DNA of 64,000 nt, from the IMG/VR virus record IMGVR_UViG_3300017770_000005, positions 1 through 64,000 of that record; one strand, given 5' to 3'. The DNA comes from a virus. Positions 19,307-33,338 of the stretch are shown piece by piece (positions within the stretch are counted from its first letter, which is position 1; each line of letters begins with the position of its first letter). The notes below the pieces were generated by a model. It made no database searches and was not told the origin of the DNA. It saw only the letters and a program-made list of their open reading frames with translations. The translations under genes and the position numbers were made by a program.

Positions 19307-20041
19307 ATGCCATTACCAACAATTGCTACACCAACGTTTGAACTAGAGTTACCTTCAACAGGACAAACGATTGAATATAGACCATTCCTAGTTAAAGAAG
19401 AAAAGGTTCTCCTATACGCATTGGAGTCTGAAAGTCAGAAACAAATTAGTAATGCAGTGAAGACTGTTATTAAAAATTGTATCAAAACAAAAGGTATCAA
19501 GGTTGAAAAACTTCCAACCTTTGATATTGAATACCTATTCTTGAACATTCGTGGAAAATCTGTTGGAGAAGATATTGAGGTTAATTTAATTTGTCCCGAT
19601 GACGGTGAGAGTACTGTCACTGTTCAAATTAATGTTGATGATATTGAAGTTCATAAGGAAAAAGGTCATGATCAACAGATCAGACTAGATGATACTATTA
19701 TGCTTGAGATGGCATATCCATCACTAACACAGTTCGTTAAAGATAACTTTGATTCTGAAACTGAAGCAGATAGATCTTTTGATTTAATTGCAACATGTAT
19801 TGACAAAGTTTATACTGAAGACGAAGTTTGGGAGGCTGCAAACTGCACTAAGAAAGAACTTATGGAGTTTGTTGAGCAAATGAATTCAACACAATTTAAA
19901 AAGATTGAAGATTTCTTTACCAGTATGCCCAAACTATCCCATACTGTAAAGATTGTAAATCCAAATACAAAAGTTGAAAGTGAAGTTGTACTTGAGGGTC
20001 TAGCATCTTTTTCGCATAGGCATGATCCATATGGATCTTGA
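19307..20041 (+). CDS. 26: baseplate hub protein gp26-like
   Basis: A 244-residue protein: MPLPTIATPTFELELPSTGQ, YRPFLVKEEKVLLYALESES, TFDIEYLFLNIRGKSVGEDI and CPDDGESTVTVQINVDDIEV match the T4 baseplate protein family that includes gp26. The C-terminal part is helical (ELMEFVEQMNSTQFKKIEDFF). gp26 takes part in hub assembly. The last bases overlap a small reading frame of gp51 type. Confidence 0.75.
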   Translation: MPLPTIATPTFELELPSTGQTIEYRPFLVKEEKVLLYALESESQKQISNAVKTVIKNCIKTKGIKVEKLPTFDIEYLFLNIRGKSVGEDIEVNLICPDDGESTVTVQINVDDIEVHKEKGHDQQIRLDDTIMLEMAYPSLTQFVKDNFDSETEADRSFDLIATCIDKVYTEDEVWEAANCTKKELMEFVEQMNSTQFKKIEDFFTSMPKLSHTVKIVNPNTKVESEVVLEGLASFSHRHDPYGS

Positions 20042-20201
20042 GAATTATTTCCGTCTCAATTTTGCCTTGATGCAGTACCATAAATATTCATTAACTGAGA
20101 TCGAGAATATGATTCCGATCGAACGTGACATCTACGTTATGCTACTTCAACAACATCTTGATGAAGAGAAGTTAAAACAGCAGACAGCAAATGGCATCTA
20201 G
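20031..20201 (+). CDS. small hub-assembly protein (gp51-like)
   Basis: A 56-residue frame starting MDLENYFRLNFALMQYHKYS and continuing LTEIENMIPIERDIYVMLLQ. It overlaps gp26 by 11 bases and the next long gene by 11 bases, in different frames. The FxLNFxLMxYHKYSLxEIExMIPxERDIY pattern resembles small gp51-type hub-assembly proteins and tail-assembly chaperones that follow gp26-like genes. Assignment is by pattern and position. A -1/+1 frameshift fusion with gp26 is a possibility I could not test. Confidence 0.6.
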   Translation: MDLENYFRLNFALMQYHKYSLTEIENMIPIERDIYVMLLQQHLDEEKLKQQTANGI

Positions 20202-22611
20202 GACTAGCACCGATCCACTAGAAATACTCTTAGAGATGGGTGTAGACCTAGATAATCTCTCTGGTGAGGAAGATTATCTTAGTGCCTTGATGGAGGCGGC
20301 AGCAACTATTGAATTCTTGACAAAAGGAAGTGGTGATGAACGTAGTGCTGCCCTTAGAAAAGAAATTATAGCAGTAAGAAAGAAAAGAAAAGCAGCAGAT
20401 CCAAAGTTTAAAGCAAAAACTGCAAAAATATCTAAGAGTTCTTTTAAACCAAAGCAGGCACCTAAACAGAAAGTATTACCTTCAAGTGCTCTTGTTCCGT
20501 ATCAGAGTCCAGAGAATAAACCTGAGGAAGAGAGTGGAAATAAAAAAACAAAAAATGAACTTGTAAAGTCTGATAAAAGTGAAAGTATTTTTTCTAGTAT
20601 TCTGAAGAATATCATTGCAATAAAAGGTCTCATTAAGGAAAGACTTAATGTAACTAAGAGTATCAGAAATGCTGAGAGAAAGAACCTTCTGAAGCAGAAA
20701 AGAAAAGCAAAAGAAGATTTGTTAGAAAAGGATAAGAAAGGAAATGGTTTCCTCAAAAAATTAAAAGGTGCTTTACCTCGATTAAACATATTTGATGCAA
20801 TATTTAATTGGATCAAGAATGTAGTTCTAGGTAGAATTCTTATCAAGATCATTGATTGGATGTCAGATCCAAAGAATAAGAAAAAACTTGATACTCTTGG
20901 TAGGTTCTTAAAAGATTGGTGGCCAGCACTTACTGCTGCATTTGTATTGTTTGCTACTCCATTGGGTGCTTTTATTAGAACCGTAGTAAGTGGAATGGCA
21001 AGACTTACTGCGTTCTTAGTACGAAGAGCAATACCTGCGTTAATAGGTTTTGCAGCAAAGAATCCACTTGCAGCTGCTGCAGTTGCCACTGCCATCGGTG
21101 CTGGTGTTTTAGCATATAGAGCTAAGGATGGCACTGAACAGCAACTAGAAGAGAAAGGTCTGAGTGATGCTACTCCAAAGGAGCAAGCAGATGAACTATC
21201 AAAACCTGGTAGTATTATGGAAACATTTACTAGGGGTCTACTACCTTCTTTGAATGATAAACGAGAAGGATATTCTGGTGGTGGTATGGCTCGTGGAACT
21301 GATACTGTTCCTGCCATGCTCACTCCAGGTGAGTTTGTAATGAGTCGTGGTGCTGTTGATAAGTTTGGTAGTGGTTTTATGGAATCTATCAATGCTGCTG
21401 GTGGTGGTACAAATAAACCAAAAATAATGAGTGGAACCACATATGCATCAGGTGGTGGTAGTGTTATTGCGTCCGATTCTAAAGTGAGTTATTATGATCC
21501 ATCTCTTGGTGGAATTAATGCGAGTGGTGCTAAAACTGCTAGTGGTCTACCTGCTACTTCTACTGGTGAAGGATATAAACCAGAGGTATTTTCTGCTGCA
21601 GCATTTCCACCATTACTAAAACTTCTTCCCAGTGATATGACAGCACCTGCACAAGGTTTCCCTGGAGGTAGAACATTAAAAAGTCCATTCCAGGTTGTTG
21701 TTACCAAAGGTGATAAAAAGGCAGTTGTGCGTGTCAATGATGTTGGTCCTGGTGTTGAAGGACACGCAGATAATCATATGCTAGATTTTAGTGTTGCTAC
21801 TAAAAATTATCTAGGAACAGGAAGTGGTGGATTTGATATTCACATGGCAAAGAGTAATGCTAAATTGGGACCAATCGATAAAGATAAAAATATTTCCAAC
21901 TTTACAATCAAGTTTGACGGATTGAAAAATTATGGTGGTTATGTTCTTCCTAGTCTTGATAGCATTCCCAACTATAGTCAAGAAAAAGAAACTAAGAAAG
22001 AGTATAAAGTTGGTGATCTTGTACAAAAGACTACAGGTGGCAAAACTAGAATCCTAGTATTCGATGGTCAAGGATGGGCAGATGCTAGAAACCCGAGGGC
22101 AGCAACATCTCAAGGAACTGTTACAACTACACTAGGTGGTAGATCTGCATCTGAAAGTCGAGCTAATAGTGGTATTATGAGTAGTCTAGAAGGTATAGAT
22201 TTCTCAGATCTAAGAGGAACTTCTGCTTTTAGTGATATTTTTGCTGGAGCAAGACAGAGTTTAGGAACAGAAGGACCAACATTTACTCCATATGTAAACT
22301 CTTTAAGTGATTCACCAAGTACATCAATTCAAAACAATAATACTACTAATACATTTAAGTCTGATGGTAGACAACAACTCATCCCATTTCCTTTGGAGAG
22401 ACTTTCTCCAATCGATAACTTAAAACGTCAACCTCTAAATTCAGTTGAAACTATAGATCTTGATCCAATTACATCGGCATTTGGACCACCATCTTCAAAT
22501 CCCACAAACTCACCACATGATCCAGAATTTCCAACAATTTCAGAATCCAAAGAGTCGGTAATTGTGAGAGAAATGGTTCTTCTAAACACTCTTGGAGGTG
22601 ATGGAGAATGA
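20191..22611 (+). CDS. tape-measure/hub protein with RlpA-like domain
   Basis: An 806-residue protein. Residues 1-100 are charged; 130-200 form Lys-rich helices. Hydrophobic helices follow at about 205-310 (FDAIFNWIKNVVLGRILIKI, ALTAAFVLFATPLGAFI, AAAAVATAIGAGVLAY). GTDTVPAMLTPGEFVMSRGA at about 369 is a motif typical of tape-measure proteins. A double-psi-barrel RlpA-like domain lies at about 430-540 (KVSYYDPSLGGINASGAKTA, VVRVNDVGPG, MLDFSVATKNYLG). RlpA-type domains cut or bind peptidoglycan. The C-terminal motif LEGIDFSDLRG is shared with the next gene. It may be the gp29-position tape measure. Confidence 0.7.
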   Translation: MASRTSTDPLEILLEMGVDLDNLSGEEDYLSALMEAAATIEFLTKGSGDERSAALRKEIIAVRKKRKAADPKFKAKTAKISKSSFKPKQAPKQKVLPSSALVPYQSPENKPEEESGNKKTKNELVKSDKSESIFSSILKNIIAIKGLIKERLNVTKSIRNAERKNLLKQKRKAKEDLLEKDKKGNGFLKKLKGALPRLNIFDAIFNWIKNVVLGRILIKIIDWMSDPKNKKKLDTLGRFLKDWWPALTAAFVLFATPLGAFIRTVVSGMARLTAFLVRRAIPALIGFAAKNPLAAAAVATAIGAGVLAYRAKDGTEQQLEEKGLSDATPKEQADELSKPGSIMETFTRGLLPSLNDKREGYSGGGMARGTDTVPAMLTPGEFVMSRGAVDKFGSGFMESINAAGGGTNKPKIMSGTTYASGGGSVIASDSKVSYYDPSLGGINASGAKTASGLPATSTGEGYKPEVFSAAAFPPLLKLLPSDMTAPAQGFPGGRTLKSPFQVVVTKGDKKAVVRVNDVGPGVEGHADNHMLDFSVATKNYLGTGSGGFDIHMAKSNAKLGPIDKDKNISNFTIKFDGLKNYGGYVLPSLDSIPNYSQEKETKKEYKVGDLVQKTTGGKTRILVFDGQGWADARNPRAATSQGTVTTTLGGRSASESRANSGIMSSLEGIDFSDLRGTSAFSDIFAGARQSLGTEGPTFTPYVNSLSDSPSTSIQNNNTTNTFKSDGRQQLIPFPLERLSPIDNLKRQPLNSVETIDLDPITSAFGPPSSNPTNSPHDPEFPTISESKESVIVREMVLLNTLGGDGE
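22186..22254 (+). repeat. 69-bp direct repeat, copy 1
   Basis: Codes for LEGIDFSDLRGTSAFSDIF and a few more residues. Copy 2 at 25608-25676 differs at about five bases. The repeat links the C-terminal ends of the two long hub proteins. Confidence 0.85.
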
Positions 22612-25600
22612 TTGGATTACTGGGGAGTTCAATTACAAGAGCAGTTGGTGGTCAACTAGCAAAAGGTGCTGCAAAAAAAGCACTTGGTGGTAAAAATAAA
22701 AAACAATCTCAAATTGTAAAAAGTCCAACCCAAGGTCAAGGACAAGGAAAAGGTGGTGCGATTGCAATAAGACCAAAGTCTGTACTTATACCAGCATCAA
22801 CTATTCCTGCAAGAAATAATAAAACAGTATCTGGATCATCAAAGTCTGGTCCAGGAACACTCGAACGTATTGATAAAGAAGTTCTTGAAATTAGAAACTT
22901 ACTTGGCAAGTCAATAAAAATAGAGAAACAAGATGCAACTACCAAGAAAAAATTATTTGAAAAAGAATTAAGGCAGTCTAAAGAGAACAAACTAGAAAAA
23001 AAATCTAAGATTGGTTCTGGACTTGGTGGACCAGGACTTTCAAAAATTCTTCCCAGTGGTGGAATTATTGATGCTATTCAAAACTTTATATTCAGTGTTA
23101 TTGGTGGTAAAATATTAATATTTTTATTTGAAAACAGAGAAGCAGTATTTAATATTGTAAAAGGTCTTGCTGCTGCCACAGAATTTATCCTAGATCTAGG
23201 AGGAAAAATTCTAAATGGAATTATATCTCTAGTTGATGGTGCCTATGATATTACCGACGCAATATCAAAAGAGATTGAAGCTGTTGGTGGAGAGGATGCT
23301 GGAAAAGAATATGGTAAGTTCACAGAAAAATTCAACAAGTTTGTTAACATTGCAATGATCTTGGCAATGTCTGGAGTTCCTCTTGGTGGTATGGGATCTC
23401 CTGCAGCAAAACCTGGAGCAAAACCTGGAGTAAAACCTCAAAGTAATCTATCACCTGGTGGAAAACCAGGACCAGGATCAAATAAATTTGGTGGTGCAAA
23501 TAATAAGACTACGGAATATATGAATCGTAACCGCACGGCAAAATATTTTGAGAGAAAGTATGGTAATAATGCTGCTAGAGAATTTTCTAATGCACATAAC
23601 AATGCTATAAACTCTGGCATGAAGCCAAAAGACGCATTAGCAGATGCAAAGAAACGTACAGAAAGGTTGATAAGAAAGAACAAGGGTCGTTTCAAAGTTC
23701 AATCTGCAGGACCTGGTTTGAGAGGTGGACCTGGAGGACAAGTAGCATCTGGAAGAGCAGGTGGTGTTTTTAGAAGAGGACTTAGAAATTCTGGAAGTCG
23801 TCTTCAGACCAGAATTATGGGTCGTGGTGCAAGACTTGGTTTGAATAGAACAGGAGCAAGACTTGCAAGTAAATTTGCCAGAGTTGGTGCTGGACCTCTA
23901 GGTAGAATACCAATTGTTGGTCCACTTATGGTTGGTATTGCTTCCTATATGGAAGATGGTAAACTTGATAGAGCATTGTTTAAGGTAGGTGGTTCTGCTA
24001 TTGGTGGTTTCCTTGGTTCATTTATCCCAATTCCATTCCTAGGAACACTCCTCGGAACACTTGCTGGTGAATATGTTGGTGACTTATTTTATGAACTACT
24101 GCGTGGTGGTGGTGCATCTGCGGTTGGAAAGAGACTGAAAAATGATATTTTAAAAGTTGTAAATGGAGCTAAATTATTTTCTGAGTGGATGATGAAGGGT
24201 ATTTCTAATATCCAAAAACAAGATGGACCAGAACTTGATTTATCATGGGTTCCCTTCTCAGATTTTGGTAAGATAAGACTTGGTGGTTGGGCTACTTTAT
24301 TAAATCCTTTAGAGTTGAATCTAGTTAAAAAGTTTGATGTTTTAAGAAAATCATTCTTCTCAGAATCGAATAATAATCCTGATAGTTCAACAACTTATAC
24401 TGAAGGTGGAAGTAACGATGGAAGAGGAAATAGTGATGCTGAGGGTGAAGAAAGTAGGAGTGGTGGTGGTGCAAGACCAACTGTAACTGGTGGTGGTGGT
24501 AGACGTTCAATTCCTTCTGGGAATGGAGCAATTACCAAAGTTCCATTTGGTGATCCAAACTTTAGTCCAGGTACAACTAGAAATAAGTCCACACAAATTT
24601 ATCTACATTGGACTGGTGGAAATTATAATGATACTAGTGCAAGTTATGGATATCATACTATTTTTGCAGGTGACGGCAGTATTCATAGAAATAAAGGATA
24701 TGATGTTACTGGAATGCATACTGAAGGAAAGAACTCTAATTCAGTAGGACTATCACTTGCTGCTATGGGTGGAGAAGGTGTAGATTGGGATAGATTTGGG
24801 TCATACCCAGTTACTCAGGAACAATTAAATGCAATGACTGCAGAAGCAGCAAGACTTGCAATCAAATGGGGGTGGAGTGAAGGTGATATTGATAAGAATA
24901 TTTGGACTCATGCCGAAGCAGGTTCTGGTTTAGATCCAAGAGGATTGAGTGGACACCTAGACAAGAATGGAGATGGAGCTCCAGATAATTATGGTCCGAG
25001 AATGTGGGGTGGATCTGTAGCAAGATGGGACCTATTGAATGTCACTGAAGGTGCAGAAATGGGCAGTGGAGGTAGTGTTGCCCGTGACATGGTTAAGAAA
25101 CATTTTAGAAACTTTAAGCAAGAAGAAACTCAAAGAGGAAAAAGTGATGCTGAAGGTCTAGAAGCAGCAGCACCATCAGGATCAGGTGATAGAAAGATTC
25201 CAAATTCATCTGGACTAGAAAAGTGGCTCAATAATACTGAGAGAGGTAGTGGAGAAGAATATAATTTGAAAGGAGTTGGAAATTATGTTAGAGGGACAAT
25301 GTTCGGAGGAGCACCTTATGACAAGTTATTCCTATATCCTGGTGCTAAGGAATTTAAAGATAAGAATGGACAAGTAAAAGGCATAACAAGAATTAGATCA
25401 TATCTAGAAAGAAACTATCCAAATTTGTTGTCTGATAAAATTATGGATGAAAAAGGAAGGACCCAGAAAGGTGCGGGTCTTCCTGGTAATCAAAGTCTTT
25501 CCCTTAAAGAAAGGAAAGCTGCTTTAGATGCGAAACAAGAGGTAAAAACAACTACAAAGACTACTACCACAACAACAGAAGATGATTCAAGAGAAAGAAA

Positions 25601-25877
25601 TACAGGTCTAGAAGGTATAGATTTTTCAGATCTAAGAGGATCTTCTGCGTTTACTGATATTTTTGCTGGGGCAAGAAGTAATTTATCATCAATAGGTCCT
25701 TCTTCTACCATTATGAGACCTGAAGAACTAAATAGGGATATTGCTTTACGTGATCAAGCAAGTTATGAGCAGGATGGTAGTAGAACAATTATAGTAAATC
25801 AACCGTATCTAATTGCTACTGGTAATCGTGATGAGCAACAACTAGCAAGTTCATCTGGAAGTAAATTCTATTCGTAA
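22608..25877 (+). CDS. long hub protein with PGRP/amidase domain
   Basis: A 1089-residue protein overlapping the previous gene by 4 bases. The front has TMP-like helices (residues 155-230, 250-270) and a basic, Gly-rich stretch (340-460), then GAGPLGRIPIVGPLMVGIAS and glycine-rich membrane-type segments (480-520). An amidase-2/PGRP domain lies at about 655-815: TQIYLHWTGGNYND, YGYHTIFAGDGSIHR, GMHTEGKNSNSVGLSLAAMG and NIWTHAEAGSG carry the zinc His residues and the fold core. This domain cuts the peptide from muramic acid and may locally open the cell wall during infection. The C-terminal LEGIDFSDLRGSSAF repeats the neighbouring protein. Confidence 0.8.
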   Translation: MIGLLGSSITRAVGGQLAKGAAKKALGGKNKKQSQIVKSPTQGQGQGKGGAIAIRPKSVLIPASTIPARNNKTVSGSSKSGPGTLERIDKEVLEIRNLLGKSIKIEKQDATTKKKLFEKELRQSKENKLEKKSKIGSGLGGPGLSKILPSGGIIDAIQNFIFSVIGGKILIFLFENREAVFNIVKGLAAATEFILDLGGKILNGIISLVDGAYDITDAISKEIEAVGGEDAGKEYGKFTEKFNKFVNIAMILAMSGVPLGGMGSPAAKPGAKPGVKPQSNLSPGGKPGPGSNKFGGANNKTTEYMNRNRTAKYFERKYGNNAAREFSNAHNNAINSGMKPKDALADAKKRTERLIRKNKGRFKVQSAGPGLRGGPGGQVASGRAGGVFRRGLRNSGSRLQTRIMGRGARLGLNRTGARLASKFARVGAGPLGRIPIVGPLMVGIASYMEDGKLDRALFKVGGSAIGGFLGSFIPIPFLGTLLGTLAGEYVGDLFYELLRGGGASAVGKRLKNDILKVVNGAKLFSEWMMKGISNIQKQDGPELDLSWVPFSDFGKIRLGGWATLLNPLELNLVKKFDVLRKSFFSESNNNPDSSTTYTEGGSNDGRGNSDAEGEESRSGGGARPTVTGGGGRRSIPSGNGAITKVPFGDPNFSPGTTRNKSTQIYLHWTGGNYNDTSASYGYHTIFAGDGSIHRNKGYDVTGMHTEGKNSNSVGLSLAAMGGEGVDWDRFGSYPVTQEQLNAMTAEAARLAIKWGWSEGDIDKNIWTHAEAGSGLDPRGLSGHLDKNGDGAPDNYGPRMWGGSVARWDLLNVTEGAEMGSGGSVARDMVKKHFRNFKQEETQRGKSDAEGLEAAAPSGSGDRKIPNSSGLEKWLNNTERGSGEEYNLKGVGNYVRGTMFGGAPYDKLFLYPGAKEFKDKNGQVKGITRIRSYLERNYPNLLSDKIMDEKGRTQKGAGLPGNQSLSLKERKAALDAKQEVKTTTKTTTTTTEDDSRERNTGLEGIDFSDLRGSSAFTDIFAGARSNLSSIGPSSTIMRPEELNRDIALRDQASYEQDGSRTIIVNQPYLIATGNRDEQQLASSSGSKFYS
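25608..25676 (+). repeat. 69-bp direct repeat, copy 2
   Basis: Near-identical to 22186-22254 and in the same relative place, close to the protein C-terminus. Confidence 0.85.
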
Positions 25878-27182
25878 ATGACAACAAACAAAGCACTCGA
25901 AGTACACAATATAACGAAGTTTAAACTTCATTCAAACTATGGAAAGGATATTAGTTTGCTTGGAGAGGGTGCATTTTCTCATGTCTTGATATTTCAAAGC
26001 ATCTACGACCATTCTGTTCGTGCAACATTTGAAATGTTTGATAGTGGTATAAGACAGGAAGAAAAGAAAACTAAATCTATTGAAGAAACAGAGTCATTTA
26101 ATATAACTGCTGGTGAAAAGGTTGAACTTATACTTGAAGATGAAAGAAAACAAAAATTAGAATTTATTGAAGGAAAAGTATTTACAATATCCGAAGTGAA
26201 AGCTTCAATGACGAACACTATGAAAGAAAACTTCAAGATTGAAATGTGTCTGAATGATTTTATAGAGAATGAATTGGAGGAAAATTTTGTTGTTGAAAGA
26301 TTTGATCAAAAAATAAGTGCTACTGTTAATCAAGTTCTTTCTAAGGTAACTGAAAGAACTATATTTATTGATCCAACAGTGACAGAACTACCTATAAAAG
26401 GATGCACTGAAAGACCTTTTGATTTTGTTACATCATTATGTTTAAAAGCACAACCAGAAAAGTTTCCTGAATCTGCAGGATATCTTCTTTTTGATAATTA
26501 TAATGGACTACACTTCAGATCCATTGATGTTATGTTTAGTCAAGAACCCAAGAGGAAAATGATACTAAACGAAACTCCAAGACTTCCTCCAGGATATAGT
26601 AATAAAATATTGAATGTAGAATTTAATAACACCATGAATGTTCTTGATAGTTTAAGATATGGTGCATTACAAAACGACAAGATGAGGACATTAGATCCAA
26701 ACTATCATACATATGCACAAAACTCTCACAATAGTGATGACCTTTATTTGGGAGACAATAATCTTAAGGATGTAAAACCAGTAGTTGGAGATCACTTAGA
26801 ACTTCCAAAAAAATCTAGTAGAGTTATGAATCAAATGCGTGACACTGGTGTTCATCCACCTGGAAAAGACCTAGAAGAACAACTCCCATTTGCACAAGAA
26901 CGGGTATTTGATCATGATACGATCCCACAATTAGCAATCAAAAGACATTATCAGTCTAGGTTATATACTGTAAATATTAAATTATACGGTGATTTTGGCA
27001 TTTTCCCTGGTGATGTAGTATATTGCGACTTTCCAGAAATTTCTTCGGACCAATCTAAAAAGAATATTTCAAAGAAAAAATCTGGAAAATACTTAGTAGC
27101 AGATGTGGCACATTTAATATGTCCAGAAGGTTGTTATACTAAGCTAAATATGATCAGAGACTCAATAGTAGAAGAGGAGTAA
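25878..27182 (+). CDS. baseplate hub protein, probable gp27
   Basis: A 434-residue protein starting directly after the previous stop. The front has beta-rich segments with SVRATFEMFDSG and AGEKVELILEDE, then VNQVLSKVTERTIFIDPTVT, FDFVTSLCLKAQPEKFPESA and GYLLFDNYNGLHFRSIDVMF. The end has FGIFPGDVVYCDFPE and SGKYLVADVAHLICPEGCYT, which is characteristic of gp27/gpD-type hub proteins. Such proteins form the trimer that holds the gp5 spike. Position directly before gp5 (with CP12 between) supports this. No firm sequence motif for gp27 exists, so the call is moderate. Confidence 0.6.
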   Translation: MTTNKALEVHNITKFKLHSNYGKDISLLGEGAFSHVLIFQSIYDHSVRATFEMFDSGIRQEEKKTKSIEETESFNITAGEKVELILEDERKQKLEFIEGKVFTISEVKASMTNTMKENFKIEMCLNDFIENELEENFVVERFDQKISATVNQVLSKVTERTIFIDPTVTELPIKGCTERPFDFVTSLCLKAQPEKFPESAGYLLFDNYNGLHFRSIDVMFSQEPKRKMILNETPRLPPGYSNKILNVEFNNTMNVLDSLRYGALQNDKMRTLDPNYHTYAQNSHNSDDLYLGDNNLKDVKPVVGDHLELPKKSSRVMNQMRDTGVHPPGKDLEEQLPFAQERVFDHDTIPQLAIKRHYQSRLYTVNIKLYGDFGIFPGDVVYCDFPEISSDQSKKNISKKKSGKYLVADVAHLICPEGCYTKLNMIRDSIVEEE

Positions 27183-27183
27183 A

Positions 27184-27411
27184 ATGGACAGTATCGAGCA
27201 ACATATTGAAAAGGACAAAGAGATTCTTGATAATCCAATGATCTCACCCAATCAACGTCGTCATATTGAAGGTGAGTTGCATGAATTGGAAGACTATGCA
27301 GAACATCATAAGAAAGAAATTGAAGAAGGTGATCATCACGATCCCTCTCCACTAGAATTATATTGTGACGCAAATCCATCAGAACCAGAATGTCTTGTTT
27401 ACGAGGACTAA
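27184..27411 (+). CDS. cp12: CP12-like Calvin-cycle regulator
   Basis: A 75-residue acidic protein. The C-terminus LELYCDANPSEPECLVYED fits the CP12 signature (C-x-x-x-P-x-x-x-E-C-x-V-Y-E/D), with two cysteines available for a disulfide. The front SIEQHIEKDKEILDN and RRHIEGELHELEDYAEHHKK matches marine cyanobacterial and cyanophage CP12. CP12 binds GAPDH and PRK and stops the Calvin cycle, which in cyanophage infection favours NADPH from the pentose-phosphate route. GAGGAG at 27175-27180 is the ribosome binding site. It sits inside the hub gene cluster. Confidence 0.8.
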   Translation: MDSIEQHIEKDKEILDNPMISPNQRRHIEGELHELEDYAEHHKKEIEEGDHHDPSPLELYCDANPSEPECLVYED

Positions 27412-27418
27412 ATGAACA

Positions 27419-30280
27419 ATGGTTAGAAGAGTAACAAGCCAATACAATAGAACAGGTGTTGAAAAAAATGTAATGTACTGGTGGACTGGTCAAGTAGTTG
27501 ATGAGTCTACCTGGCTTGACAATGAACTTACACCAAATCACCCAAAGGGTGCTGCAAAAGGTCACGGAAAACGATATCGTGTTAGAATATTCAGTAGAGA
27601 TTCTGAGGTCAAAATTGTCCCAGATCAACAACTGGATATGGCAGATGTCATTATCCCTGTAACTGCAGGTTCTGGTCATGGTTGTTATTCTGAGACTGTT
27701 GTCTTATCTCAAGGATCCTGGGTTACAGGATGGTTTTGGGATGGTGCTGAAGGTAGACAACCAGTTATTTTAGGTTCTCTCCCCAATAATCCAGATACGG
27801 GACTTTTTGGTGGAGATCCACCAGAAGGATATATTGGTAGAACTGGTCTGAATGGTCTAACTGGACCAAAACCGATAAAAGAAGAAGATATACTTGCTGG
27901 CACTGCAAGTGGAACTGCAATGCCTGCTATCGAATCAAAAAGTGCAGATCCTAGTGAATTAACCAACGCAGATCCTATACAAACAGCAGATGGGAATGAG
28001 GTATCACCAAGAAAAAGAAATATTGAGTGTGAAGGTGGTTCTGGTCCATTAAAAGGTGTTCAAGGATTTATCCAAAGAGCTCTTGCTACTATCCAAAAAC
28101 TAAAACTATTCAAATCAACAGCACAGAGCACAATTAACAGTATCTTAGCAACTGCATCGAATATTACAAATCAAGTTGCTGGTGCAGTTGCAAGTCTCTT
28201 TAAGATGATTGTTGGTAAGATGAGAGGATTTATCCTCAATAAAATCAATGCTGGTCTTAAAGATGTTGGAGAACTGTTACCACCAAGTTTGAGACAAGCA
28301 TTTTCTTCTGGTGCTAATAATACGATTGACACACTTGCCTGTGTATTCCAAAAAATTATGGGTACACTCTTTCAGATGGCAAAGGGTATGTTTGAGGAGT
28401 TGGTTGATAGTTATGTTATGGCACCATTATGTGCCGCCGAGAAGATGGTCGGTGATATGATTGGAAATATTCTGGGTGAAATTACTGATGCTGTAGATGG
28501 TGCAATAGGTGCTATTGCTGGATTAGTTGACTCTGGATTTGCTATTGTAGACCAAGCATTTTCTGTTCTTGAAATTATTCAAGGTCTCCTTAATTTCTTA
28601 AAATGTGATGCTACTCCAGATTGTGAGTATAAAGATCAGTGGAGTTTCTGGAACGGTTCTAGTCTATCGGCAGATGTGTCTGATGGAATTGCAAATATTA
28701 TGAAAGATATCTCACAGGGAGTTGATAATGCTCTTGGAGGAGGTGGAGGAGGTGGTGGAGGTGCTGGAGCAGGATGTAACACTGATCAACTACCTTGTGG
28801 TCCTCCAGGTCTTTCTTTCAGTGGTGGAGGTGGATCTGGTCTTGCTGGTAATTTGATAATGTCTGCTGGACAAATCATGGGTGTTGATTTCTCCAGTTTT
28901 GGTAGTGGATATTCATACACACCAACTCTTAGTGTTACAGATGGTTGTGGAAATGGTGGTGGTTATAAAATAGAACTTCTTACTAATGATGGAAACAATT
29001 CTTCATCAGATACAAGTATAAAAGAAGGAGAGAATATTCAGATTGTTGGTGCTGTTGTAGTCCAACCTGGTTCGGGTTATCTAGATGAACCAGACGGTTC
29101 TACAAATATTAGTAAACCAGAAGAGTCAATTATTAGATATGAAGATGATAGATGGGAGGTAATGAAACCTGATGATGTAGTTGAGATACCTTATAAAGAA
29201 GACGGATATGATAATTGTCCTACTATTGCTATGCCAGTAGATACAGAATCTCAAGTATTTGATCCAAGTGGAAATGTAATTCAAGTTCTTACTGGTCAAG
29301 GACCAACAACTCCACTTCCAATGTGTAATGGTGGAACAATTACAATTCCAACTCCTCCAAATGTATTTGAAAACGAGCAAGGTCCTGCAGATTTTACTGG
29401 AACTGCACCTGTAGATCCTGAACTCAATTCACCATACGTTAATGTTACGACTGGTACTGGAAATTGGGATGGATTTGTTGGTGAAGATGTTAGAAATGAT
29501 GATAAGGCAATTTGGGATGGTGAAAAATGGAGACTTATAAAAGAACCACGTGATAATAGACCTAATAGTGGTGGAGAAAAGGCAGATATTATATTAGATG
29601 GGGTGTATATTTACAATCCTGGATATAACTATCAACAAGGTGATGTAATTGTAGTAGAACCAGATACTGGTTTAAAATTAATTCCAACATTTAATGATAT
29701 TGGTCAATTGACTGATGTTACAATTCAAGATCCTGGGTCAACATTTAGTTCTTACCCAGAAATTTACATTAAATCAGTGACTGGAATTAATGCTACAATC
29801 TTACCAATATTTAAAGTTAGGACTGAAGAAGATCCTGACGCAAATTCAAGAATTCTTTCTGGAGACAGAATTATTTCTGTTGATGATTGTATTGGTAGAT
29901 TGATTATAGGTTATGTAAATGGTCAACCATACTATGGACCATTCCATAAGCATAAAGGAAGGAAGATGGTTGGTGCTGTACATAGTTCCAAACCACATGC
30001 ATTCATTTACGATACACCAGAAGCAAGTCTGAGAGATCCATATTCAAAACTAAAATCAAAGATTTATACTGCAGGACCAACTGTTCCAGTTGAGGAAACA
30101 GAAGTTTCTTCGGATGAAAGTGTTATGGTGGAACAATCAACACCCACACCTGCACCTACACAAACTCCCACAATCATATCAACACCAACACCACCTCCAA
30201 CAACTAGACCCACACCACCACCATCTAGTGGAGGAAGTTCTGGATATAGTAGTGGTGGAAGTGGTGGATCAGGGTACTAA
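27419..30280 (+). CDS. 5: baseplate hub spike protein gp5-like
   Basis: A 953-residue protein. Residues 15-150 look like the gp5/VgrG OB-fold (MYWWTGQVVDESTWLDNEL, GKRYRVRIFSRDSEVKI, VTGWFWDGAEGRQPVILGSL). A helical middle (about 210-400) and a poly-Gly run at about 440-450 follow. Beta-type repeats (GSGYSYTPTLSVTDGC, PGSGYLDEPDG, NPGYNYQQGDVIVVE) precede YYGPFHKHKGRKMVGAVHS, a motif typical of phage hub proteins. The end is Pro/Thr- then Gly/Ser/Tyr-rich. No lysozyme domain as in T4 gp5 is visible, so the cell-wall activity may lie in the two long neighbours. Confidence 0.72.
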   Translation: MVRRVTSQYNRTGVEKNVMYWWTGQVVDESTWLDNELTPNHPKGAAKGHGKRYRVRIFSRDSEVKIVPDQQLDMADVIIPVTAGSGHGCYSETVVLSQGSWVTGWFWDGAEGRQPVILGSLPNNPDTGLFGGDPPEGYIGRTGLNGLTGPKPIKEEDILAGTASGTAMPAIESKSADPSELTNADPIQTADGNEVSPRKRNIECEGGSGPLKGVQGFIQRALATIQKLKLFKSTAQSTINSILATASNITNQVAGAVASLFKMIVGKMRGFILNKINAGLKDVGELLPPSLRQAFSSGANNTIDTLACVFQKIMGTLFQMAKGMFEELVDSYVMAPLCAAEKMVGDMIGNILGEITDAVDGAIGAIAGLVDSGFAIVDQAFSVLEIIQGLLNFLKCDATPDCEYKDQWSFWNGSSLSADVSDGIANIMKDISQGVDNALGGGGGGGGGAGAGCNTDQLPCGPPGLSFSGGGGSGLAGNLIMSAGQIMGVDFSSFGSGYSYTPTLSVTDGCGNGGGYKIELLTNDGNNSSSDTSIKEGENIQIVGAVVVQPGSGYLDEPDGSTNISKPEESIIRYEDDRWEVMKPDDVVEIPYKEDGYDNCPTIAMPVDTESQVFDPSGNVIQVLTGQGPTTPLPMCNGGTITIPTPPNVFENEQGPADFTGTAPVDPELNSPYVNVTTGTGNWDGFVGEDVRNDDKAIWDGEKWRLIKEPRDNRPNSGGEKADIILDGVYIYNPGYNYQQGDVIVVEPDTGLKLIPTFNDIGQLTDVTIQDPGSTFSSYPEIYIKSVTGINATILPIFKVRTEEDPDANSRILSGDRIISVDDCIGRLIIGYVNGQPYYGPFHKHKGRKMVGAVHSSKPHAFIYDTPEASLRDPYSKLKSKIYTAGPTVPVEETEVSSDESVMVEQSTPTPAPTQTPTIISTPTPPPTTRPTPPPSSGGSSGYSSGGSGGSGY

Positions 30281-33093: not shown

Positions 33094-33255
33094 ATGCGAC
33101 CAGAAACAAGAGAGTCAATGGAAATGCTATTTTCGGCAAAATGGAATCTTCCGAAAGCAGCAAAAAATTGTGGATTGACAGAAAAGGAAATGAAAATAAC
33201 ATTTAATGAATACTGCTTTTTTCACCCACCCACTTGGGAATCATCGGAAGTGTAG
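33094..33255 (+). CDS. small HTH-like protein
   Basis: A 53-residue protein starting MRPETRESMEMLFSAKWNLP and continuing KAAKNCGLTEKEMKITFNEY, a helix-turn-helix-like pattern. An upstream in-frame start at 33004 would add SKKWGKKIPTIFSYERF, but that region is the repeated leader. I prefer ATG 33094 because the leader copy at gp59 also ends at the ATG; the longer form cannot be excluded. The stop lies in the acceptor region of the tRNA gene. Confidence 0.5.
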   Translation: MRPETRESMEMLFSAKWNLPKAAKNCGLTEKEMKITFNEYCFFHPPTWESSEV

Positions 33256-33338
33256 CTCAATTGGCAGAGCGAGAAGCTTATACCTTCTGTATGCACCAGA
33301 TTAGTGCGCGGTTGTGGGTTCGAGTCCCACCACTTCCA
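33246..33338 (+). tRNA. tRNA with UAU anticodon and long variable arm
   Basis: A 93-base cloverleaf: acceptor GGAAGTG/CACTTCC with A as discriminator, D-arm GCTC...GAGC, anticodon stem AGAAG/CTTCT with loop CTTATAC, and T-arm GTGGG-TTCGAGT-CCCAC. With U33 as the second loop base the anticodon is UAU, which reads AUA (Ile). The variable region is about 25 bases and can form TGCAC/GTGCG. That is class II length, unusual for tRNA-Ile. No CCA is encoded. The 5' end overlaps the small protein gene by 10 bases. Confidence 0.75.

Follow-up and report, generated by a model that had tools for sequence, protein, structure and literature searches.

A paralogous protein pair with exchangeable wall-cutting modules beside a lysozyme-free gp5: a candidate entry-lysin system of T4-like cyanophages

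The window analyzed here is the whole stretch of 64,000 nucleotides (nt) at positions 1 to 64,000 of the IMG/VR record IMGVR_UViG_3300017770_000005; it is part of a 76-kb virus record, and its gene content reads as that of a T4-like cyanophage. The closest isolates to the window are Synechococcus phages, with S-SCSM1 first. Our subject is a pair of long genes, open reading frames (ORFs) A and B, which lie in the order gp26, a gp51 of 59 amino acids (aa), ORF A, ORF B, gp27, a CP12-like ORF, and gp5 (Table 1). An earlier sequence-only reading had reported two adjacent genes at 20191–25877, and both were recovered there, with products of 806 and 1089 aa and an overlap of 4 nt.

Table 1. Positions of the hub-region genes and of the features within ORFs A and B in the window
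Feature	Position	Strand	Evidence or remark
gp26-like baseplate hub protein (T4_baseplate)	19307..20041	+	Pfam PF12322 E=1.4e-72
Small gp51-like ORF, 59 aa	20022..20201	+	ORF; position equals gp51 in S-SCSM1, Bellamy, others
ORF A, first of the paralogous pair, 806 aa	20191..22611	+	phrog_35029 E=4e-88 over aa 1-431
A chassis: N-terminal helical region aa 1-310, hydrophobic stretch aa 244-262	20191..21120	+	AF2, hydropathy
DTVPAMLTPGEFVMS motif region aa 353-404, common to tape-measure families	21247..21402	+	phrog_23013, 3547, 37649, others; E 1e-5 to 4e-4
A swap module, DPBB/RlpA-like barrel, aa 426-600	21466..21990	+	Pfam E=0.01 alone; profile to 4avr 4e-23, 8kea 6e-15
69-nt repeat copy 1, C-terminal motif of A	22184..22252	+	64/69 to copy 2
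ORF B, second of the pair, 1089 aa	22608..25877	+	phrog_2588 and phrog_35997
B chassis region homologous to A aa 127-267	22839..23249	+	hhalign 99%, E=8e-18
Glycine-zipper hydrophobic segment in B, aa 400-514	23805..24149	+	single copy per genome
B swap module, Amidase_2/PGRP-type domain, aa 645-860	24540..25187	+	Pfam E=3.4e-6; conserved columns; T7 lysozyme/PGRP matches
69-nt repeat copy 2, C-terminal motif of B	25606..25674	+	64/69 to copy 1
gp27-like hub protein (phrog_350 'tail protein')	25878..27182	+	phrog_350 E=3e-57
gp5-like central spike without lysozyme domain	27419..30280	+	phrog_1922 E=3e-71; OB match to T4 gp5

The arrangement is nearly invariant among relatives. We surveyed 104 T4-like cyanophage loci carrying both gp26 and gp27, of which 83 remained after removal of near-duplicates, and exactly two large genes lie between gp26/gp51 and gp27/gp5 at 103/104 loci. 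At the remaining locus, that of ACG-2014j (L025 946–3543), gp26 and gp27 enclose just one large gene; this gene holds a lambda-lysozyme-like module and, tried as an A-chassis protein, gave no alignment with the A chassis. At least one recognizable peptidoglycan-cutting module occurs in A or B at 63/83 loci (A 29, B 56, both 22). The modules of the non-redundant loci fall into 11 classes and 38 arrangements, the classes being DPBB, Amidase_2, M23, VanY/M15, glucosaminidase, GH24, Phage_lysozyme2, SleB-type, GH19, C39, and lambda-lysozyme-like. Most classes are directly supported by Pfam, with the calls at each locus made through profiles seeded from those matches; the lambda-lysozyme-like class was called from a profile match to 1am7 of only 1e-3. 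A first GH19 profile was rejected, as it caught the shared chassis (66 matches), and a narrow rebuilt profile matched 2 proteins.

The two proteins are paralogous, as the sequence-only reading had proposed. ORF A and ORF B are similar in their N-terminal parts (blastp within the window, E=9e-7), the A-family and B-family profiles align over the N-terminal helical part with an hhalign probability of 99% (E=8e-18), and in most of the 23 genomes checked, A matches the B of its own genome in this part. Each chassis is, by sequence, N-terminal, helical, and partly hydrophobic, with a weakly predicted fold. The low-confidence AF2 model of ORF A has helices at aa 9–69 and 130–310, and a fold search with this model, which was too poor, gave no meaningful match. 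Hydrophobic stretches are present in A or B at 79/83 loci, and the glycine-zipper segment is found in B at 57/83, in A at 5/83, and in both at none.

The two window proteins carry different predicted wall-cutting modules, and the RlpA-like barrel and PGRP/amidase domain named in the sequence-only reading were both recovered. B matches Pfam Amidase_2 at E=3.4e-6 (27.8 bits, above the curated cut-off of 26) as well as T7 lysozyme and PGRPs. Its His, His, Asp, and Tyr columns are conserved, with the first three invariant across 9 relatives; we take these three to be zinc ligands by analogy with AmpD and T7 lysozyme, and an intact zinc site appears plausible. Window A alone is weak against Pfam DPBB_1 (E=0.01, 16.5 bits against a cut-off of 28.8), but a family profile of A and its relatives matches the RlpA-like PA4485 of P. 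aeruginosa (4avr, 4e-23) and, in the hub of phage A-1(L), the DPBB domain (8kea, residues 289–386, 6e-15). The conserved Asp (ND) and the TAAH His of DPBB domains have a catalytic role; the Asp is kept in all 9 DPBB barrels, and the His is missing in the window type. We therefore call the window barrel only DPBB-like, because it lies under the Pfam cut-off, and do not class it with the RlpA enzymes, because the TAAH His is missing. This missing His, together with the existence of non-catalytic receptors among PGRP-type folds, would suit a reading in which A and B, as hub or tape-measure proteins, use the modules to dock on the wall, binding peptidoglycan without cutting it. We judge it quite unlikely in view of the conserved amidase columns, the enzymatic nature of most classes found elsewhere at this site (GH24, M23, VanY, GH19), and the lytic activity of the A-1(L) DPBB and peptidase domains.

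The gp5 proteins of these phages have no detectable wall-cutting domain. A domain scan found no wall hydrolase, lysozyme or other, in gp5 (0/57), and the same scan detects the lysozyme of T4 gp5 at 1.3e-12 as a positive control. The Gp5_OB domain is present in 43/57, and the OB domain of the window gp5 aligns with T4 gp5 at an hhalign probability of 97%. For the window gp5, no lysozyme appears in Pfam, in the PHROG domain content, or in the low-confidence predicted fold (pLDDT 48), where OB strands, the sole part matching T4 gp5, are followed by long helices at aa 210–394. The claim that gp5 lacks a lysozyme domain thus held, and a lysozyme domain revealed by structure prediction, which the sequence-only reading had named as a refuting result, was not found within this weak model. 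Its further suggestion that the wall-cutting role has moved from gp5 to A and B stands as to where the modules are, but not as to the direction of the move. The gp5 of these phages is labeled 'tail lysozyme' in many records despite having no detectable lysozyme domain, and this annotation is a carried-over label. The helical stretch at aa 217–450 of the window gp5 stands where T4 has its lysozyme and has weak matches to several tape-measure families.

Sequence comparison indicates that the domains are swappable modules and not fixed properties of A and B. The A protein of a related locus, L007, is 55–97% identical to window A per 40-aa block up to aa 400 and only 10–23% over aa 441–560, where a lambda-lysozyme-like module replaces the barrel; after the swap region the linker (PSLDxxPxxxQEKET) resumes at 30–45% identity, and L007 B retains the amidase. 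The barrel that sits in A here sits in B of RB11-B (57% identity). At loci with at least two modules, a sugar-chain cutter accompanies a peptide cutter in 24/29 against 14.6 expected (p=1e-4, SleB-type modules excluded), and mixed chemistries amount to 30/37 against 19 expected when SleB-type modules are counted as sugar cutters; the expectations come from shuffling, which ignores relatedness. The two chemistries predicted for the window pair co-occur beyond chance. About a quarter of the loci have no detectable module.

The near-identical 69-nt repeat described in the sequence-only reading lies close to the ends of both genes. The best ungapped 69-nt match between A and B is 64/69, against at most 44/69 in 20 codon-shuffled controls, and the repeat extends to 103 nt (A copy to 22286) at 82% identity. 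It encodes IDFSDLRGxSAFxDIFAGAR, about 118 aa from the C-terminus of A and 66 aa from that of B, a motif confined to the group of the window, L006, L007, and L033. The same codon is used at 18/21 identical residues of the two window copies (chance ~49%), equal to the sameness between the window and its L006 orthologs (86%). The motif of window A stands at 0.89 to that of window B versus 0.69 to that of L007 A, and in L033 both copies are altered together to ALKGVDFSTLKG...GAFSDMFAEARANLG. This likeness, in the few sequences at hand, would fit a recent gene conversion or a binding site common to both proteins and under strong co-selection. A further scenario, which we consider improbable, makes A and B the two components of a tape-measure/pilot complex; gene conversion would keep their C-terminal docking motifs alike within a genome, with the modules moving freely between the partners as a standing plug-in system that matches host wall chemistry.

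Orthologs of both proteins have been found in virions of cultured phages. The S-SCSM1 report lists the orthologs of A and B, ORF213 and ORF214, in CsCl-purified virions and deems them unlikely to be structural (PMC9602691). The S-CREM2 report gives 73 and 71 unique peptides for virion ORF208 and ORF209 and lists them as endolysins (PMC10665884). The latter label, also used for P-SSM4 and P-RSM1, and the view taken in the S-SCSM1 text would agree with A and B being release endolysins that adhere to particles, in line with the labels in several database records and two papers. We think this very unlikely, as A and B are large, consist of several parts, and lie within the hub gene block at all but one locus, the chassis is conserved independently of the module, the peptide counts in S-CREM2 virions are high, and the longest A/B pair accompanies the longest tail.

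The same phage bears on the tape-measure question. The S-CREM2 tail, at 418 nm, is the longest cyanomyovirus tail (PMC10665884), and its ORF208 and ORF209, with 1565 and 1456 aa, form the longest pair at this locus. In the same cluster, S-N03 has a tail of 138 nm with a pair of 933+722 aa, and S-H34 one of 129 nm with 936+735 aa; across four phages, tails of 129, 138, 173, and 418 nm stand against A+B lengths of 1671, 1655, 2081, and 3021 aa. The lengths within the S-CREM2 cluster are hints of a tape-measure role. Together with a position relative to the hub genes like that of T4 28/29, the tape-measure motif in A at 23/83 loci, and the widespread hydrophobic segments, they make it possible, though doubtful, that A or B (or both) is a classical tape measure carrying lysins as in TM4/T5, the pairing having no further meaning. 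However, A and B have no similarity to T4 gp29 (hhalign probability 2.3% and 0.3%), the predicted helices cover only ~180–250 residues, the short pairs have 420+420 aa, of which 420 aa as one helix would span at most 63 nm, and the extra length of S-CREM2 A is partly helix-poor. The tape-measure-like helices of the sequence-only reading are therefore retained as helices with a tape-measure-family motif but without detectable gp29 similarity, and its label 'hub proteins' for both is a guess from gene position. A or B and the pf16 counterpart were also tried as relatives of T4 gp29 or of each other and were rejected, no similarity being found. The search for a further tape measure within 33–62 kb of the window returned only fibre, wedge, helicase, or unknown families.

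We consider it probable that A and B belong to the virion, occupy the tail hub/tape-measure slot, and serve as paired entry-lysin carriers with pluggable modules, and the best reading is that this paired plug-in system may stand in for the gp5 lysozyme. We favor it because the gp26-gp51-A-B-gp27-gp5 order is fixed, A and B are paralogous, modules occur in A/B and in none of the 57 gp5, the module differs on the same chassis (window A versus L007 A), the same barrel sits in different carriers (window A, RB11-B B), sugar and peptide cutters co-occur, both orthologs appear in the published S-SCSM1 and S-CREM2 virion data, the A-1(L) hub DPBB and peptidase domains lyse Anabaena, and the amidase zinc-ligand columns are conserved. 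The architecture would comprise an N-terminal chassis, long flexible linkers, a pluggable peptidoglycan-cutting module, and a short near-identical C-terminal motif, which may dock A and B on one hub partner (gp27, gp5, or gp48) and so place their modules at the tail tip. When the tail contracts, the gp5 spike, itself free of lysozyme, would pierce the outer membrane and A and B would be released into the periplasm, where the B amidase would remove stem peptides and the A barrel attack the glycan strands until a hole opens. The hydrophobic segments, including the single glycine-zipper segment, may then help DNA across the inner membrane. Modules would pass from phage to phage as well as between A and B, and most phages with two recognizable modules apparently retain a sugar-chain cutter together with a peptide cutter.

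Several points weigh against this interpretation. Both AF2 models (gp5 and ORF A) are of low confidence, and docking and release are steps that we infer. The window DPBB lies under the Pfam cut-off and is without the TAAH His found in other barrels. When SleB-type modules are counted as peptide cutters, mixed chemistries fall to 24/37 against 20 expected (p=0.12) and the excess is gone. No module was detected at 20/83 loci, including very short pairs of 420–509 aa. Some of the loci scored empty, whose B proteins terminate in M15-like HxxHxHIE stretches, may hold unrecognized modules.

Tail proteins with wall-cutting domains, including a multi-domain cyanophage hub and tape-measure lysins, are already known. 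T4 gp5 likewise places wall cutting at the tip of a T4-type contractile tail, and its OB domain is kept here; the difference is that the window gp5 and 56 relatives have no lysozyme domain and the enzyme modules reside in two other proteins. The A-1(L) hub gp15 (8kea) is a cyanophage tail hub with several wall-lytic domains, of which the DPBB ('endoglucanase') and peptidase domains both lyse Anabaena cells (PMC10966104). Our barrel matches this DPBB, and the match falls in the domain named endoglucanase by its authors (PMC10966104). In A-1(L), one hub protein holds all domains beside a separate tape measure, whereas here there are two paralogs with exchangeable modules. Mycobacteriophage TM4 (PMC1796659) and T5 pb2 (PMC6116005, review) share a peptidoglycan-cutting domain within a tape-measure-type virion protein but have a single siphovirus tape measure with no paralogous partner. 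The nearest counterparts, the S-SCSM1 and S-CREM2 pairs, are positional orthologs detected in virions by mass spectrometry; their modules differ (glucosaminidase + VanY and GH19 + lambda-lysozyme-like/GH24), and the available parts of these reports do not treat the pair as paralogous tail components. We found no description in the open-access literature of a pair of paralogous carriers that is fixed throughout a family, bears interchangeable modules, and takes the place of the gp5 lysozyme.

Other features of the region are recorded here. Between gp27 and gp5, the window has a 75-aa CP12-like ORF (27184–27411), where relatives have CP12 and cpeT. The window gp26 (19307–20041) ends in SFSHRHDPYGS, and close relatives end in SFFA; a one-base indel near 20010–20020, perhaps an assembly error, is a possible cause of the altered C-terminus. 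A 93-nt tRNA-Ile with anticodon TAT lies at 33246–33338. Short A/B pairs that form a bare chassis with no detectable module occur at L154 1983–4507, L151 4649–7463, and L142 2019–4945; among the phages with the shortest pairs, one has a gp26 nearest to cyanophages, and another has an A that matches nothing in isolates.

The T4-like cyanophages of the sea rank among the most abundant viruses. Their way of crossing the cell wall has been masked by labels, with gp5 recorded as 'tail lysozyme' and the likely entry enzymes as 'endolysin' or 'hypothetical'. A fixed carrier pair with swappable cutters would make the entry chemistry readable from sequence, and the A/B pair is a clear candidate for the missing tape measure. 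The chassis-matched natural swaps may serve the study of how wall chemistry relates to phage entry.

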